DNA of 64,000 nucleotides from NCBI GenBank assembly GCA_947172415.1, contig OX359196.1:4466501-4530500 (forward strand), given 5' to 3'. The notes under the pieces were generated by a model. It saw nothing but the letters and a program-made list of their open reading frames with translations, was not told where the DNA came from and did not search any database. The position numbers and the translations under genes were made by a program. This document shows positions 27,065 through 61,175 of this stretch, in pieces. The stretch comes from Chondrosia reniformis. Lineage: Eukaryota; Porifera; Demospongiae; Chondrillida; Chondrillidae. Position 1 is the first letter of the stretch; every line of letters starts with the position of its first letter.

Positions 27065-27185
27065 TGCGTGGAAACTGACGTCGATCCGCTGATTTCGAAA
27101 GTCAAAAAGTATATGCAACTGTGCAACTATGCAAAACCTACAAATTGTTATATATCCTCAAAATTGAGTAGCTAGATTGTGGAAA
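27065..27185 (+). promoter_or_regulatory. Upstream segment shared by both DUF288 genes
   Basis: This ~120-bp leader is recognisably the same as 33254-33393: both hold GCGTGGAAACTGACGTC, then AAAAAGTATATGCAAC and CCTCAAAATTGAGTAGCTAG directly before the gene. TGACGTC resembles a CRE half-site. Conservation outside the coding part suggests the promoter was duplicated with the gene. Regulatory function is inferred. Confidence 0.5.
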
Positions 27186-29399
27186 ATGAGGTGTAACATT
27201 TGGAAAAATAGACACGTCAGAACGATATACATATTAATGGTCACCGTCTTGGTTTGCTGTATTTTGATGGCAATCAACCGGTTAAATAAACCATCACTTT
27301 TGGCCGCAATAACCGTCGAAAGGGAACAGGCAAAGTGTTACCTACTCGTAAAACAGCACCAGTCAGCGCCAGCAGAAGGAAAGAAGTATGACATTCCTGT
27401 CGAAAGAGTTGTCAGTGGCTATATAAAAGATTTAGAAACTGTGAGATACCTCGAATGGGACCCGTTTTCCCATTTAATGTCGTATACTTTGAAGAGATCC
27501 TTCCATCAAGAGAACTGCTCGCAGTGGGCTGTAGTGACCACCATCAATCCACCCACACAGGCCATCAAGCAAATAGAAGGGCTCGAGGACTGGTGCCTTG
27601 TCGTTGTTGGAGATCAAGACACTCCCGACAACTTTACACTAGCTGGACAGAGAAGCGTGTATTTAGGAGTCAGTGAACAGGAACATCTAACATACAGGAC
27701 AGTACAACTCACACCTTGGAGGACCTTCAGTCGTAAAAACATTGGCTATCTGTATGCTATACAACACGGAGCTGAAGTAATCTTTGATTTTGATGACGAC
27801 AATAAATTAAATTCAGATAAACTAAATATCCAGAAAATTTTGCACAGGAATCTTAATGTAGCGCGTGTGCGTGGAAATCTATGGAACCCTTATCCATTTT
27901 ACGGTTTTCAGGATGCGTGGCCAAGAGGCTTTCCACTCAACCTCATAAAGAAAACGTATACAACTGCACCTCCTGTCAAAAATGTAGCAGGTTATGGAGT
28001 TAAGCGCGTTGGTGCATGGCAGCTGCTTTCAGATGGTGACACTGATGTCGATGCTATCTACCGACTGACGCGTGGTATTCCTAACATAACATTCAGTCGC
28101 AAATTTAAAGGAACTAGACTTCCGCCTGGTGTTATGAGCCCATTTAATGCCCAGTCGACCTTTTTCCATCGCGATGCCTTCTGGAGCATGTCTCTTCCCT
28201 TGTCAGTACACGCTAGAGTAAGCGACATATGGCGAGCATACATGGCAGAGAGATTGATGTGGGAAGCCGGGCTAGGTGTTGCGTTTTTACCCTCTTTTAT
28301 CAATGCTACAGGTAGGAATTTTCACAAGCCCTACTTTGATTATCAAGCTGAGTTACCACTTTACCAAAAAGCAGGAATTTTGACAAGATATTTAACTAAG
28401 TGGAAATGCCTAAGGAACCTTCTAAAGGAATGTATTTTGCAACTCTATAGAGATATGTTTGAAGTAGGAATCCTAGAGGAGGAAGATGTGAGCTATATGG
28501 TTGCTTGGTTGAACGACTTATCTGCAATGGGATACATATTCCCAGCCATGCAAAATAATCAAAGATGGAGGATGGAGGATTGGAGGAAGATTCGACTGTG
28601 TGTAGAATTTAATACTAACTTTCCCTTGTTGGAGGAAAATATAAATTCAACTTTAAAGTTACTTCATTCTCACTATGCTCAATATTTTGATAGAATTTCC
28701 TATACTGGCCCTATTCCTAGACCAGATTACATTAGTAAGGACATTGAATACATTCAGTGCAACGAAAGTGAAACAGGATATTTACAACAGAAATGTATTG
28801 TTGCTCATTTGGAGTCTTTTCCAAGTGAAGAGGGATATCTCTATATAGCTGATGATACATTTATTGATTTTTCAAGGTTGTCTAAAATGCCACTGGATAA
28901 AATATGGATCAAGGAAGGTCAAAGGTATAATATTACGAATGCTAATGAATTTAAAGGTTGGTACTGGTGGAACTCAGAATATGGATACAATTCCTTGATT
29001 GACCATTGGGAGAAACTTCCGCAGAGCATGAAAGATAAAGTTGCACAAGCAACAGGAAGTGCAGACATCATCAGAACGCATGCTCTTGCAGATTTTGTGT
29101 ATATTCCTCAAGTCTCAAGAAAGACGTTTATAGAAGCTACCAAAGCACTAGCCTATGAAGACCCTCCGCTCTTTTGTGAGATCGCATTACCAATTATAGC
29201 AGACATTGCAGATGGACCTAATGTGATTCCATTGGAGGAGTGTCTGTTATGGAAAAAAAGACGCACAACAAGTAATCTAAGGGACTCTACTGTAAGTGGA
29301 AAATGTGATGTAGTGCATCCTTTTAAATTAACCAATACTAAGGAGAGGTTGCTTTGGATGGAACAAATGAGAGCATTAGAGGAGGAGTGGGTTTCTTGA
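27186..29399 (+). CDS. DUF288/STELLO-like Golgi glycosyltransferase-family protein, copy 1
   Basis: Intronless, 737 residues from ATG 27186. The preceding in-frame TTG at 27177 is not needed. A short basic N-terminus is followed by a hydrophobic anchor (~12-30), giving a type II, probably Golgi, topology. Residues ~70-390 carry the DUF288-like core: WAVVTTINPPTQAI, then VIFDFDDDNK near 200 (Asp-rich metal-binding motif as in GT-A enzymes), PFNAQSTFFHRDAFWSM and VSDIWRAYMAERLMWE, a pattern of DUF288 proteins in nematodes and of plant STELLO proteins. The second half (NCES-type Cys, Tyr/Trp-rich) is not recognised and may be a second catalytic or binding domain. Enzymatic activity of the family is not firmly established. 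A near-identical copy lies 6.2 kb downstream. Confidence 0.8.
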   Translation: MRCNIWKNRHVRTIYILMVTVLVCCILMAINRLNKPSLLAAITVEREQAKCYLLVKQHQSAPAEGKKYDIPVERVVSGYIKDLETVRYLEWDPFSHLMSYTLKRSFHQENCSQWAVVTTINPPTQAIKQIEGLEDWCLVVVGDQDTPDNFTLAGQRSVYLGVSEQEHLTYRTVQLTPWRTFSRKNIGYLYAIQHGAEVIFDFDDDNKLNSDKLNIQKILHRNLNVARVRGNLWNPYPFYGFQDAWPRGFPLNLIKKTYTTAPPVKNVAGYGVKRVGAWQLLSDGDTDVDAIYRLTRGIPNITFSRKFKGTRLPPGVMSPFNAQSTFFHRDAFWSMSLPLSVHARVSDIWRAYMAERLMWEAGLGVAFLPSFINATGRNFHKPYFDYQAELPLYQKAGILTRYLTKWKCLRNLLKECILQLYRDMFEVGILEEEDVSYMVAWLNDLSAMGYIFPAMQNNQRWRMEDWRKIRLCVEFNTNFPLLEENINSTLKLLHSHYAQYFDRISYTGPIPRPDYISKDIEYIQCNESETGYLQQKCIVAHLESFPSEEGYLYIADDTFIDFSRLSKMPLDKIWIKEGQRYNITNANEFKGWYWWNSEYGYNSLIDHWEKLPQSMKDKVAQATGSADIIRTHALADFVYIPQVSRKTFIEATKALAYEDPPLFCEIALPIIADIADGPNVIPLEECLLWKKRRTTSNLRDSTVSGKCDVVHPFKLTNTKERLLWMEQMRALEEEWVS

Positions 29400-33253: not shown

Positions 33254-33393
33254 TGCGTGGAAACTGACGTCCACAAATGTGATATATATAATTTAGAAGT
33301 TTAAAAAGTATATGCAACAGTTGAACTGTGCTACTATGCAAAACCTACGAATTGTTATATTATCCTCAAAATTGAGTAGCTAGATTGTGGAAA
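33254..33393 (+). promoter_or_regulatory. Upstream segment of DUF288 copy 2
   Basis: Matches 27065-27185, including AAACTGACGTC and CCTCAAAATTGAGTAGCTAG. A few small insertions lie between the shared blocks, so it is slightly more diverged than the coding part. Confidence 0.5.
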
Positions 33394-35607
33394 ATGAGGT
33401 GCAAGATGTGGAAAAATAGACACGTCAGAACGATGTACGTATTAATGGTCATCGTCTTGGTTTGCTGTATTTTGACGGCAATCAAACGGTTAAATAAACC
33501 ATCACTTTTGGCCGCAATAACCGTCGAAAGGGAACAGTCAAAGTGTTACCTACTCGTAAAACAGCACCAGTCAGCGCCAGCAGAAGGAAAGAAGTATGAC
33601 ATTCCTGTCGAAAGAGTTGTCAGTGGCTATATAAAAGATTTAGAAACTGTGAGATACCTCGAATGGGACCCGTTTTCCCATTTAATGTCGTATACTTTGA
33701 AGAGATCCTTCCATCAAGAGAACTGCTCGCAGTGGGCTGTAGTGACCACCATCAATCCACCCACACAGGCCATCAAGCAAATAGAAGGGCTCGAGGACTG
33801 GTGCCTTGTCGTTGTTGGAGATCAAGACACTCCCGACAACTTTACACTAGCTGGACAGAGAAACGTGTATTTGGGAGTCAGCGAACAGGAACATCTAACA
33901 TACAGGACAGTACAACTCACACCTTGGAGGACCTTCAGTCGTAAAAACATTGGCTATCTGTATGCTATACAACACGGAGCTGAAGTAATCTTTGATTTTG
34001 ATGACGACAATAAATTAAATTCAGGTAAACTAAATATCCAGGAAGTTTTGCACAGGAATCTTAATGTAGCGCGTGTGCGTGGAAATCTATGGAACCCTTA
34101 CCCATTTTACGGTTTTAAGGATGCCTGGCCAAGAGGCTTTCCACTCGACCTCATAAAGAAAACGTATACAACTGCACCTCCTGTCAAAAATGTAGCAGGT
34201 TATGGAGTTAAGCGCGTTGGTGCATGGCAGCTGCTTTCAGATGGTGACACTGATGTCGATGCTATCTACCGACTGACGCGTGGTATTCCTAACATAACAT
34301 TCAGACGCCAATTTAAAGGAACTAGACTTCCGCCTGGTGTTATGAGCCCATTTAATGCCCAGTCGACCCTTTTCCATCGCGATGCCTTCTGGAGCATGTC
34401 TCTCCCCTTGTCAGTACACGCTAGAGTAAGCGACATATGGCGAGCATACATGGCAGAGAGATTGATGTGGGAAGCCGGGCTAGGCGTTGCGTTTTTACCC
34501 TCTTTTATCAATGCTACAGGTAGGAATTTTCACAAGCCCTACTTTGATTATCAAGCTGAGTTACCACTTTACCAAAAAGCAGGAATTTTGACAAAATATT
34601 TAACTAAGTGGAAATGCCAAAGGAACCTTCTAAAGGAATGTATTTTGCAACTCTATATAGATATGTTTGAAGTAGGAATCCTAGAGGAGGAAGATGTGAG
34701 CTATATGGTTGCTTGGTTGAACGACTTATCTGCAATGGGATATGTATTCCCAGCCATGCAAAATAATCAAAGATGGAGGATGGAGGATTGGAGGAAGATT
34801 CAACTGTGTGTACAATTTAATACTAACTTTCCCTTGTTGGAGGAAAATATAAATTCAACTTTAAAGTTGCTTCATTCTCATTATGCTCAATATTTTGATA
34901 GAATTTCCTATACTGGCCCTATTTCTAGACCAGATTACATTAGTAAGGACATTGAATACATTCAGTGCAACGAAAGTGAAACAGGATATTTACAACAGAA
35001 ATGTATTGTTGCTCATTTGGAGTCTTTTCCAAGTGAAGAGGGATATCTCTATATAGCTGATGATACATTTATTGATTTTTCAAGGTTGTCTAAAATGCCA
35101 CTGGATAAAATATGGATCCAAGAAGGTCAAAGGTATAATATTACGAATGCTAATGAATTTAAAGGTTGGTACTGGTGGAACTCAGAATATGGATACAATT
35201 CCTTGATCGACCATTGGGAGAAACTTCCGCAGAGCATGAAAGATAAAGTTGCACAAGCAACAGGAAGTGCAGACATCATCAGATCCAATGCTCTTGCAGA
35301 TTTTGTGTATATTCCTCAGATCTCAAGAAAGAAGTTTATAGAAGCTACCAAAGCACTAGCCTATGAAGACCCTCCGCTCTTTTGTGAGATCGCATTACCA
35401 ATTATAGCAGACATTGCAGATGGACCTAATGTGATTCCATTGGAGGAGTGTCTGTTATGGGAAGAAAGACGCACAACAAGTAATCTAAGGGACTATGCTG
35501 TAAGTGGAAAATGTGATGTATTGCATCCTTTTAAATTAACCAATACTAAGGAGAGGTTGCTTTGGATAGAACAAATAAGAGCATTAGAGGAGGAGTGGAT
35601 TTCTTGA
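33394..35607 (+). CDS. DUF288/STELLO-like Golgi glycosyltransferase-family protein, copy 2
   Basis: Intronless, 737 residues from ATG 33394, differing from copy 1 at only a few dozen scattered residues with no frame break. All motifs listed for copy 1 are kept: the N-terminal anchor, IFDFDDDNK, PFNAQST and VSDIWRAYMAERLMWE. Most changes are conservative (for example Arg to Lys, Asp to Gly after the Asp-rich motif), which suggests both copies are under constraint. The 3' flank also matches copy 1 except for the ~210-bp segment present only there. A recent tandem duplication is the simplest explanation; the retroelement fragments between them would then be later arrivals or part of the duplicated interval. 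Confidence 0.8.
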   Translation: MRCKMWKNRHVRTMYVLMVIVLVCCILTAIKRLNKPSLLAAITVEREQSKCYLLVKQHQSAPAEGKKYDIPVERVVSGYIKDLETVRYLEWDPFSHLMSYTLKRSFHQENCSQWAVVTTINPPTQAIKQIEGLEDWCLVVVGDQDTPDNFTLAGQRNVYLGVSEQEHLTYRTVQLTPWRTFSRKNIGYLYAIQHGAEVIFDFDDDNKLNSGKLNIQEVLHRNLNVARVRGNLWNPYPFYGFKDAWPRGFPLDLIKKTYTTAPPVKNVAGYGVKRVGAWQLLSDGDTDVDAIYRLTRGIPNITFRRQFKGTRLPPGVMSPFNAQSTLFHRDAFWSMSLPLSVHARVSDIWRAYMAERLMWEAGLGVAFLPSFINATGRNFHKPYFDYQAELPLYQKAGILTKYLTKWKCQRNLLKECILQLYIDMFEVGILEEEDVSYMVAWLNDLSAMGYVFPAMQNNQRWRMEDWRKIQLCVQFNTNFPLLEENINSTLKLLHSHYAQYFDRISYTGPISRPDYISKDIEYIQCNESETGYLQQKCIVAHLESFPSEEGYLYIADDTFIDFSRLSKMPLDKIWIQEGQRYNITNANEFKGWYWWNSEYGYNSLIDHWEKLPQSMKDKVAQATGSADIIRSNALADFVYIPQISRKKFIEATKALAYEDPPLFCEIALPIIADIADGPNVIPLEECLLWEERRTTSNLRDYAVSGKCDVLHPFKLTNTKERLLWIEQIRALEEEWIS

Positions 35608-59987: not shown

Positions 59988-61175
59988 ATGCCGGGACGAC
60001 AAGGTAGCTAAAAGTAGCCTAGGTCATTGACCATCTCTATTTGTGGCTGGTATGGTTAAGTGACAGCAGAGATTAATTATTATTGTTTCTTTGTCAAGGT
60101 GGAAAAGCAAAGCAGCTAAAGCAGCCCAAGAAAGAGAGAAAGGAAGCGGATGAAGTAAGACATGACACTTTTTACATCATCAAGTTGGTGTCCGTATTGT
60201 TTCCCCTATATAGGATGATGAAGCTTTTAAGCAAAAACAAAAAGAAGACGCGAAAAAGTTAGCTGAAGCCAAATCCAAAGCAAAAACTAAAGGACCCATG
60301 GGTAAGTGAGTTGTATCCACTGAGGGACCCATGGGTAAGTGAGTTATATCCACTGAGGGACCCATGGGTAAGTGAGCTATATCCACTGAGGGACCCATGG
60401 GTAAGTGAGTTATATCCACTGAGGGACCCATGGGTAAGTGAGTTGTATCCACTGAGGGACCCATGGGTAAGTGAGTTGTATCCACTGAGGGACCCATGGG
60501 TAAGTGAGTTATATCCACTGAGGGACCCATGGGTAAGTGAGCTATATCCACTGAGGGACCCATGGGTAAGTGAGTTGTATCCACTGAGGGACCCATGGGT
60601 AAGTGAGTTATATCCACTGAGGGACCCATGGGTAAGTGAGTTGTATCCACTGAGGGACCCATGGGTAAGTGAGTTATATCCACTGAGGGATCCATGGGTA
60701 AGTGAGTTATATCCACTGAGGGATCCATGGGTAAGTGAGTTATATCCACTGAGGGATCCATGGGTAAGTGAGTTATATCCACTGAGGGATCCATGGGTAA
60801 GTGAGTTATATCCACTGAGGGATCCATGGGTAAGTGAGTTATATCCACTGAGGGACCCATGGGTAAGTGAGTTGTATCCACTGAGGGACCCATGGGTAAG
60901 TGAGTTGTATCCACTGAGGGACCCATAGTGAGGCAAGTTATAGTTTTATAAATGACTTACTGATATAATGTTTATGTTACAAGTTATGGGCTGTAAATGG
61001 AAAGCATTTCTATCAATCTATAGTTTGTATCAAGTAATTTTGCTAGGTATATACTGTACATGTGTGTACTATGGGTATTAATGATGGTATGTACCTATAT
61101 TGAATCTATTGATGACATCACCTTTGTATGTACGATGTGTATTTAGGTGTTGGGGGAATGAAGAAGAGCAAGTGA
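59988..61175 (+). CDS. TMA7: Translation machinery-associated protein 7
   Basis: Four exons: 59988-60003, 60099-60154, 60214-60301, 61147-61175; 62 residues (human 64). Opens MPGRQGGKAKQLKQPKK, contains DDEAFKQKQKED and KKLAEAKSKAK, and ends GPMGVGGMKKSK, matching TMA7/CCDC72 from end to end. A small, highly basic, disordered protein associated with ribosomes. The third intron is unusual: from 60292 it consists of 19 tandem 33-bp units, each repeating the last bases of exon 3 and the donor (CCCATGG|GTAAGTGAG). Only the first donor keeps the frame, because every unit brings a TGA right after it (K-G-P-M-G-K-stop). Confidence 0.93.
60292..60925 (+). repeat. 33-bp minisatellite, 19 units, duplicating the TMA7 exon 3 splice donor
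   Basis: The unit starts GGACCCATGGGTAAGTGAGT and ends ATCCACTGAG. The start-to-start span of 627 bp equals 19 x 33, and a partial unit (GGACCCATAG) closes the array. Variants: GGATCC in five adjacent units near 60690-60830, and TTGTAT/TTATAT/CTATAT in the middle. Because 33 is a multiple of three, several long frames stay open on both strands, but these are composition artefacts. Confidence 0.97.

Follow-up and report, generated by a model that had tools for sequence, protein, structure and literature searches.

A tandem array of 19 splice donors in a TMA7 intron of the kidney sponge Chondrosia reniformis, a probable exon-intron-junction minisatellite

Locus and gene features

The window, i.e. 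the whole stretch of DNA analysed here, comprises 64,000 nucleotides (G000:C8:4466501-4530500) of the genome of Chondrosia reniformis (kidney sponge), assembly odChoReni1.1. This assembly has 117.37 Mb in 14 chromosomes plus the mitochondrion, with a primary QV of 69.8 and a HiFi coverage of about 70x (10.31 Gb in 0.80 million reads) (PMC12181767). Its annotation comprises 17,340 genes; the HiFi reads (ERR10224860), the alternate haplotype (GCA_947172445.1) and RNA-seq run ERR10177766, filed under specimen code odChoReni1, are public. The genome as searched here consisted of 117,379,552 bases in 15 contigs. The plus strand of the window carries a gene for the small ribosome-associated protein TMA7, with the following features:

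59988..60003, plus strand: TMA7 coding exon 1 (gene model)
60099..60154, plus strand: TMA7 coding exon 2, with acceptor TTTGTCAAG and donor GAA/GTAAGA
60214..60301, plus strand: TMA7 coding exon 3, the final 10 bases being the start of array unit 1
60302..61146, plus strand: TMA7 intron 3 from donor 1, 845 nt (251 nt if donor 19 is used)
61147..61175, plus strand: TMA7 coding exon 4, encoding VGGMKKSK and the stop

The TMA7 domain (PF09072) spans residues 3-61 of the 62 residues of the predicted protein (Pfam; E 6.3e-22, 78.5 bits versus a cut-off of 27) and thereby essentially the whole protein, which places it in the family. When the genome was searched in six frames for this protein, two matches were obtained, both of them exons of the locus at 59988-61175, and no match was found among PDB sequences at E values up to 0.1. 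Introns 1 and 2 are 95 and 59 nt long. The neighbouring gene on the opposite strand is of the ATP synthase type (PF00231) and presumably encodes the gamma subunit; a gene with a VWA domain lies downstream of TMA7. Elsewhere in the window two plus-strand open frames of 740 aa each (27177-29399 and 33385-35607) start about 6 kb apart and are near-identical by eye, probably reflecting a recent tandem gene duplication.

Structure of the array

Positions 60292-60926 form a single tandem array with a period of 33, 19.2 copies and 97% matches (TRF), an arrangement that cannot be due to chance. Its features are:

60292..60918, plus strand: 19 tandem 33-bp units in register, with the donor TGG/GTAAGTGAG in every unit
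60302 + 33(k-1), plus strand: first intron base of the donor in unit k
60294..60303, plus strand: perfect 10-bp palindrome ACCCATGGGT spanning the donor edge in unit 1 and found in 14 of the 19 units
60307..60309, plus strand: in-frame TGA in unit 1, terminating all products except that of donor 1
60919..60943, plus strand: degenerate 20th copy without GTAAGT

The preliminary description had proposed that a splice donor with its exon edge was amplified 18 extra times, in an array that begins with the last bases of exon 3. Both statements hold: the 19 units in register carry the same donor, and unit 1 opens with the final 10 bases of exon 3, GGACCCATGG. Its count of 19 copies is right for full units and has to be supplemented by the degenerate 20th copy at 60919. 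The string ATGGGTAAGTGAG is likewise found in each full unit and nowhere else in the window, 19 times in all. The six bases preceding unit 1 (ACTAAA) agree with the ACTGAG of the unit at four of six positions, so that the duplicated stretch may extend slightly further into exon 3. The rarer GC-type donors have the consensus AG/GCAAGT, and the decayed 20th copy (60919-60943) contains the similar GAGGCAAGT.

Three of the 33 unit positions are variable, namely position 4 (C/T, 14/5), position 20 (T/C, 17/2) and position 22 (A/G, 12/7). The 19 copies fall into four unit types, no variant is a singleton, and the five units with T at position 4 are the adjacent units 13-17. With so few variable positions and no singletons the array is either young or homogenised, and the pattern suggests a turnover in which local copying would outpace new mutation. 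By chance alone, the three variable sites would all miss the donor with P 0.37; the identity of all 19 donors is therefore evidence of neither constraint nor decay.

An assembly artefact, named in the preliminary description among the things that could undo its reading, or a collapsed repeat is very improbable: the 0.64-kb array is far shorter than a HiFi read, the assembly has about 70x HiFi coverage and a primary QV of 69.8, and the dispersal of the variants over the units speaks against a simple misassembly. In a genome-wide search with the unit all nine of the nine matches scored (at least 9) lay inside the TMA7 array. No exact match of the 33-bp unit was found in the viral and prokaryote collections, from which near kin of this genome are possibly excluded, and an origin of the array from a symbiont or virus was rejected on this ground. 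Long open frames cross the array on both strands between 60180 and 60936 (248 and 225 aa on the minus strand, 205 aa on the plus strand), as is expected with a unit of 33 bp, i.e. 11 codons.

Donor pairing and predicted products

At least seven matches to U1, all above the family cut-off, were found in the genome (41 of 1348 candidates scored). Six of the seven have ACTTACCTG in the 5' region and one (L017) has ACTTACTTG. Against the sponge's own U1 5' end, UAACUUACCUG, the array donor forms a duplex of -10.9 kcal/mol, whereas a perfect match reaches -14.4 kcal/mol; the earlier characterisation of the donor as near-ideal is thus fair as to its strength, which is however not maximal. The donors of TMA7 introns 1 and 2 pair with -6.2 and -4.5 kcal/mol, respectively.

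Splicing in silico from donor 1 yields the 62-aa protein ending in GPMGVGGMKKSK. Splicing from any of donors 2-19, as well as retention of the full intron, yields one identical product of 55 aa ending in GPMGK. The first donor alone preserves the protein, as had been stated from the outset; that each of the others adds an immediate stop is correct with regard to the truncation and can be put more precisely, in that all 18 lead to a single truncated protein, the stop being located in unit 1. Transcripts from the extra donors differ solely in how much of the array they retain. With donor 2 the stop lies 25 nt ahead of the last junction, with donors 3-19 it lies 58-586 nt ahead. For nonsense-mediated decay a stop-to-junction distance of 50-55 nt is the mammalian rule, and for 17 of the 18 extra donors the distance exceeds 50 nt. 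Noisy or unproductive splicing of TMA7 from the array is accordingly possible. Where several strong donors compete in splicing models, it is often the intron-proximal site that is chosen, a preference by which donor 19 would be favoured.

RNA folding

The palindrome-bearing units are the 14 with C at unit position 4. Because ACCCATGGGT at the donor edge is palindromic, units can pair with one another, and one possible consequence, to which we give little credence, is self-masking: pairing between units would sequester donors 2-19 in hairpins, while donor 1, made before it has any pairing partner, would be free for U1. Windowed local folding gave an unpaired probability of 0.019 for donor 1 versus 0.0001-0.003 for donors 2-19. 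The value for donor 1 was steady at 0.019-0.021 with two to 19 units, and 0.023 with a single unit. Opening freshly transcribed donor 1 cost 5.0 kcal/mol with 200 nt and 2.1 kcal/mol with 150 nt of upstream sequence, compared with 6.3-11.6 kcal/mol for five of the six later donors tested; the sixth, donor 3, required only 3.2 kcal/mol. In the full-length equilibrium fold, however, opening donor 1 cost 10.0 kcal/mol, above six of the seven other donors tested (5.8-10.8 kcal/mol), so that its advantage in openness is an edge effect of the windows together with timing.

Shuffling of the units also argues against self-masking. Six-unit arrays of shuffled units were equally stable in 336 of 1000 cases and contained a palindrome of at least 10 in 52 of 1000; with the donor held fixed, the figures were 96 and 22 of 500. 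RNA structure as evidence of selection was therefore rejected, since shuffled units fold as well. We hypothesise from these folding models that structure could still aid the choice of donor 1.

Donor arrays elsewhere in the genome

A sample of 264 kb, made up of the window and 20 random 10-kb stretches, contains 33 further occurrences of GGTAAGT outside the array on both strands, which extrapolates to about 15,000 per genome. The 19 array sites correspond to about 0.1% of this number. The suggestion that the array acts as a U1 sink or decoy, titrating or storing U1 snRNP, draws on the presence of 19 sites of -10.9 kcal/mol within 627 bp; against the genomic background 19 sites in one transcript are globally negligible, which makes a bulk sink very unlikely. 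Neither AATAAA nor ATTAAA, at which U1 might act as a local protectant, was found at 60302-61144.

The same 264 kb hold 61 non-overlapping arrays with a period of 10-100, 24 of them with at least five copies. A donor of -9 kcal/mol or better is found in two of the 61 and, among the 24, in the TMA7 array alone; one 13-bp satellite accounts for several of the 24, which are thus not independent. Counted as overlapping triples rather than as arrays, GGTAAGT triples number 197 genome-wide versus 257 for the reversed-motif control at a spacing of 15-45 bp, and 189 versus 234 at 28-58 bp. At neither spacing is there a genome-wide excess over the reversed motif, so that the counts give no indication of donor arrays being favoured in this genome. 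A genome-wide selected family of donor arrays was rejected for this reason, and since the folding also lies within the shuffled range, nothing points to selection for donor arrays.

Among the matches listed, which run from C1 to the TMA7 array on C8, at least 20 arrays contain GGTAAGT triples, the TMA7 array included. Pfam searches on the three donor-strand frames covered 15 of the 19 others (all except L053-L056). Matches to S1, SR1P, Mucin-like, DUF6385 and Pro-rich were below the curated cut-off and were dropped. Two of these at least 20 arrays (TMA7 and PDI), and possibly that of L048 too, lie at a sense exon edge; no exon was assigned to 14 of the others, among which there may be further cases or none.

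The PDI array (L043; G000:C4:7651600-7653100, minus strand) is a clear second case of a donor array at an exon edge. A PDI intron of 277 nt, array included, begins at its first base with 4.9 copies of a 39-bp unit, giving five donors. The exon ends in ...AKEFRGR and the next exon resumes with IIFVRVNTDVENNN; the join aligns with solved PDI over 64 of 64 residues (E 1.8e-8). The first donor pairs with U1 at -7.3 kcal/mol and the four extra donors at -10.5 kcal/mol, each of the latter adding VSS and then a stop. End-to-end alignment with solved PDI is obtained from the first donor alone, despite its weaker pairing. As the protein-preserving donor is both first and weakest, order or exon context may outweigh donor strength, as suggested by two loci in one haplotype.

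A third array at an exon edge may be that of L048. For its exon no Pfam family was found, a KH_TffA match being dropped; the best match in one search was a bacterial protein at E 0.061, and another gave the exon itself alone. Two further arrays lie close to recognisable exons: that of L044 about 300 bp past a septin-domain exon on the same strand, and that of L038 beyond an exon with an MRP-S35 domain. A minisatellite antisense to an importin-5 exon (E 6e-16) is present at L045 (G000:C5:7225400-7227100) and stops 7 bases short of the inferred 3' splice site of that exon, for which it would supply a pyrimidine-rich stretch. L054 (G000:C7:6584800-6587000) consists of units of the form GTAAGT...TACTAATACT...ATACAG with AG/GT at each join. 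Each unit, about 30-55 bp long, resembles a complete miniature intron, with a donor, a motif which we take to be branch-like, and an acceptor. L052 (G000:C7:513900-515600) and L053 (576900-578600) are separated by 63 kb; both have 11 donors and, as far as listed, the same flank, and they may represent either a segmental duplication or a duplicated stretch of the assembly.

These counts and the PDI case also bear on the idea that the array is kept as a dosage rheostat, in which competition among 19 donors diverts a set fraction of TMA7 pre-mRNA to decay-prone isoforms, the fraction being governed by unit number or U1 level. The shared truncated product of all 18 extra donors, the position of the stop 58 nt or more ahead of the last junction in 17 of them and the strong pairing of the array donors with the genome's own U1 would all suit a rheostat. 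We nevertheless regard it as unlikely: GGTAAGT triples are in no excess over the reversed motif, the donors bear no sign of constraint, and the PDI array, in an unrelated gene, is equally compatible with recurrent birth of passengers.

Comparison with known systems

In the human gene IFI6 (6-16, G1P3) a minisatellite is reported to supply multiple splice donors (Turri, Cuin and Porter 1995, Nucleic Acids Res 23:1854), and two downstream repeat units reportedly serve as splice donors, giving three mRNA species (PMC4526556). The TMA7 array agrees with this kind in overlapping an exon end, unit 1 starting 10 bases before the end of exon 3, and in having a donor consensus in each unit (19 of 19, -10.9 kcal/mol). 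It is thus a further example of a kind already known. The TMA7 unit measures 33 bp, unlike the IFI6 unit of about 12 bp. Alternative units reportedly give protein isoforms in IFI6, whereas in TMA7 all extra units end in one and the same early stop; additional donors are on record as being used in IFI6 and may or may not be used in TMA7.

Internal tandem repeats at exon-intron boundaries that alter splicing are described from human segmental duplications (PMC2812944). They resemble the TMA7 case in being minisatellite expansions, with units of 30 bp on average, at an exon-intron boundary; in TMA7, by contrast, an existing donor has been copied, and the gene is at one locus. Intron gain through tandem genomic duplication (PMC4974935) is similar in that a tandem duplication changes gene structure at introns, and differs in that no new intron is formed in TMA7, where an existing intron acquires donors. 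Among the matches listed in the openly licensed literature, no donor array of TMA7 or of a sponge was found.

Proposed origin and significance

The array is best read, with somewhat better than even confidence, as an exon-intron-junction minisatellite whose extra donors are passengers, with donor 1 mainly used and some unproductive mRNA produced. From its anatomy, a 33-bp segment straddling the junction, with 10 bases from the end of exon 3 and 23 from the start of intron 3, would have been duplicated in tandem, and the shared, non-singleton variants suggest that it was then expanded and homogenised via slippage or unequal exchange. The extra donors would have been carried along as passengers. 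The splicing machinery presumably acts mainly on donor 1, as the conserved C-terminus of TMA7 requires this donor. Leakage to donors 2-19 or intron retention would give a protein truncated at GPMGK, as predicted in silico, and from donor 3 on, with 58 nt or more between the stop and the last junction, the transcript would be a target of nonsense-mediated decay by the mammalian rule. The cost of the array would be some unproductive mRNA, perhaps rising with unit number. Tandem duplication of the junction is one of several conceivable origins. Introns being short, simple arithmetic makes it fairly likely that a tandem duplication of 30-40 bp includes a donor, and no special mechanism would be needed for the birth of such an array.

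A wider and rather improbable proposal would be that junction minisatellites recur as a class in this compact genome (TMA7, PDI and possibly more) and are length-tunable, self-pairing donor arrays that are read on a first-come basis, unit number setting the amount of productive housekeeping mRNA. The donor array of TMA7 is real and most likely a passenger. With 19 identical donors, of which all but the first spoil the protein, it constitutes a natural experiment on the choice among equal 5' splice sites, i.e. on whether the first transcribed, the one nearest to the acceptor or a random one is taken, and the PDI intron adds a case in which the donor that preserves the protein pairs least well with U1.
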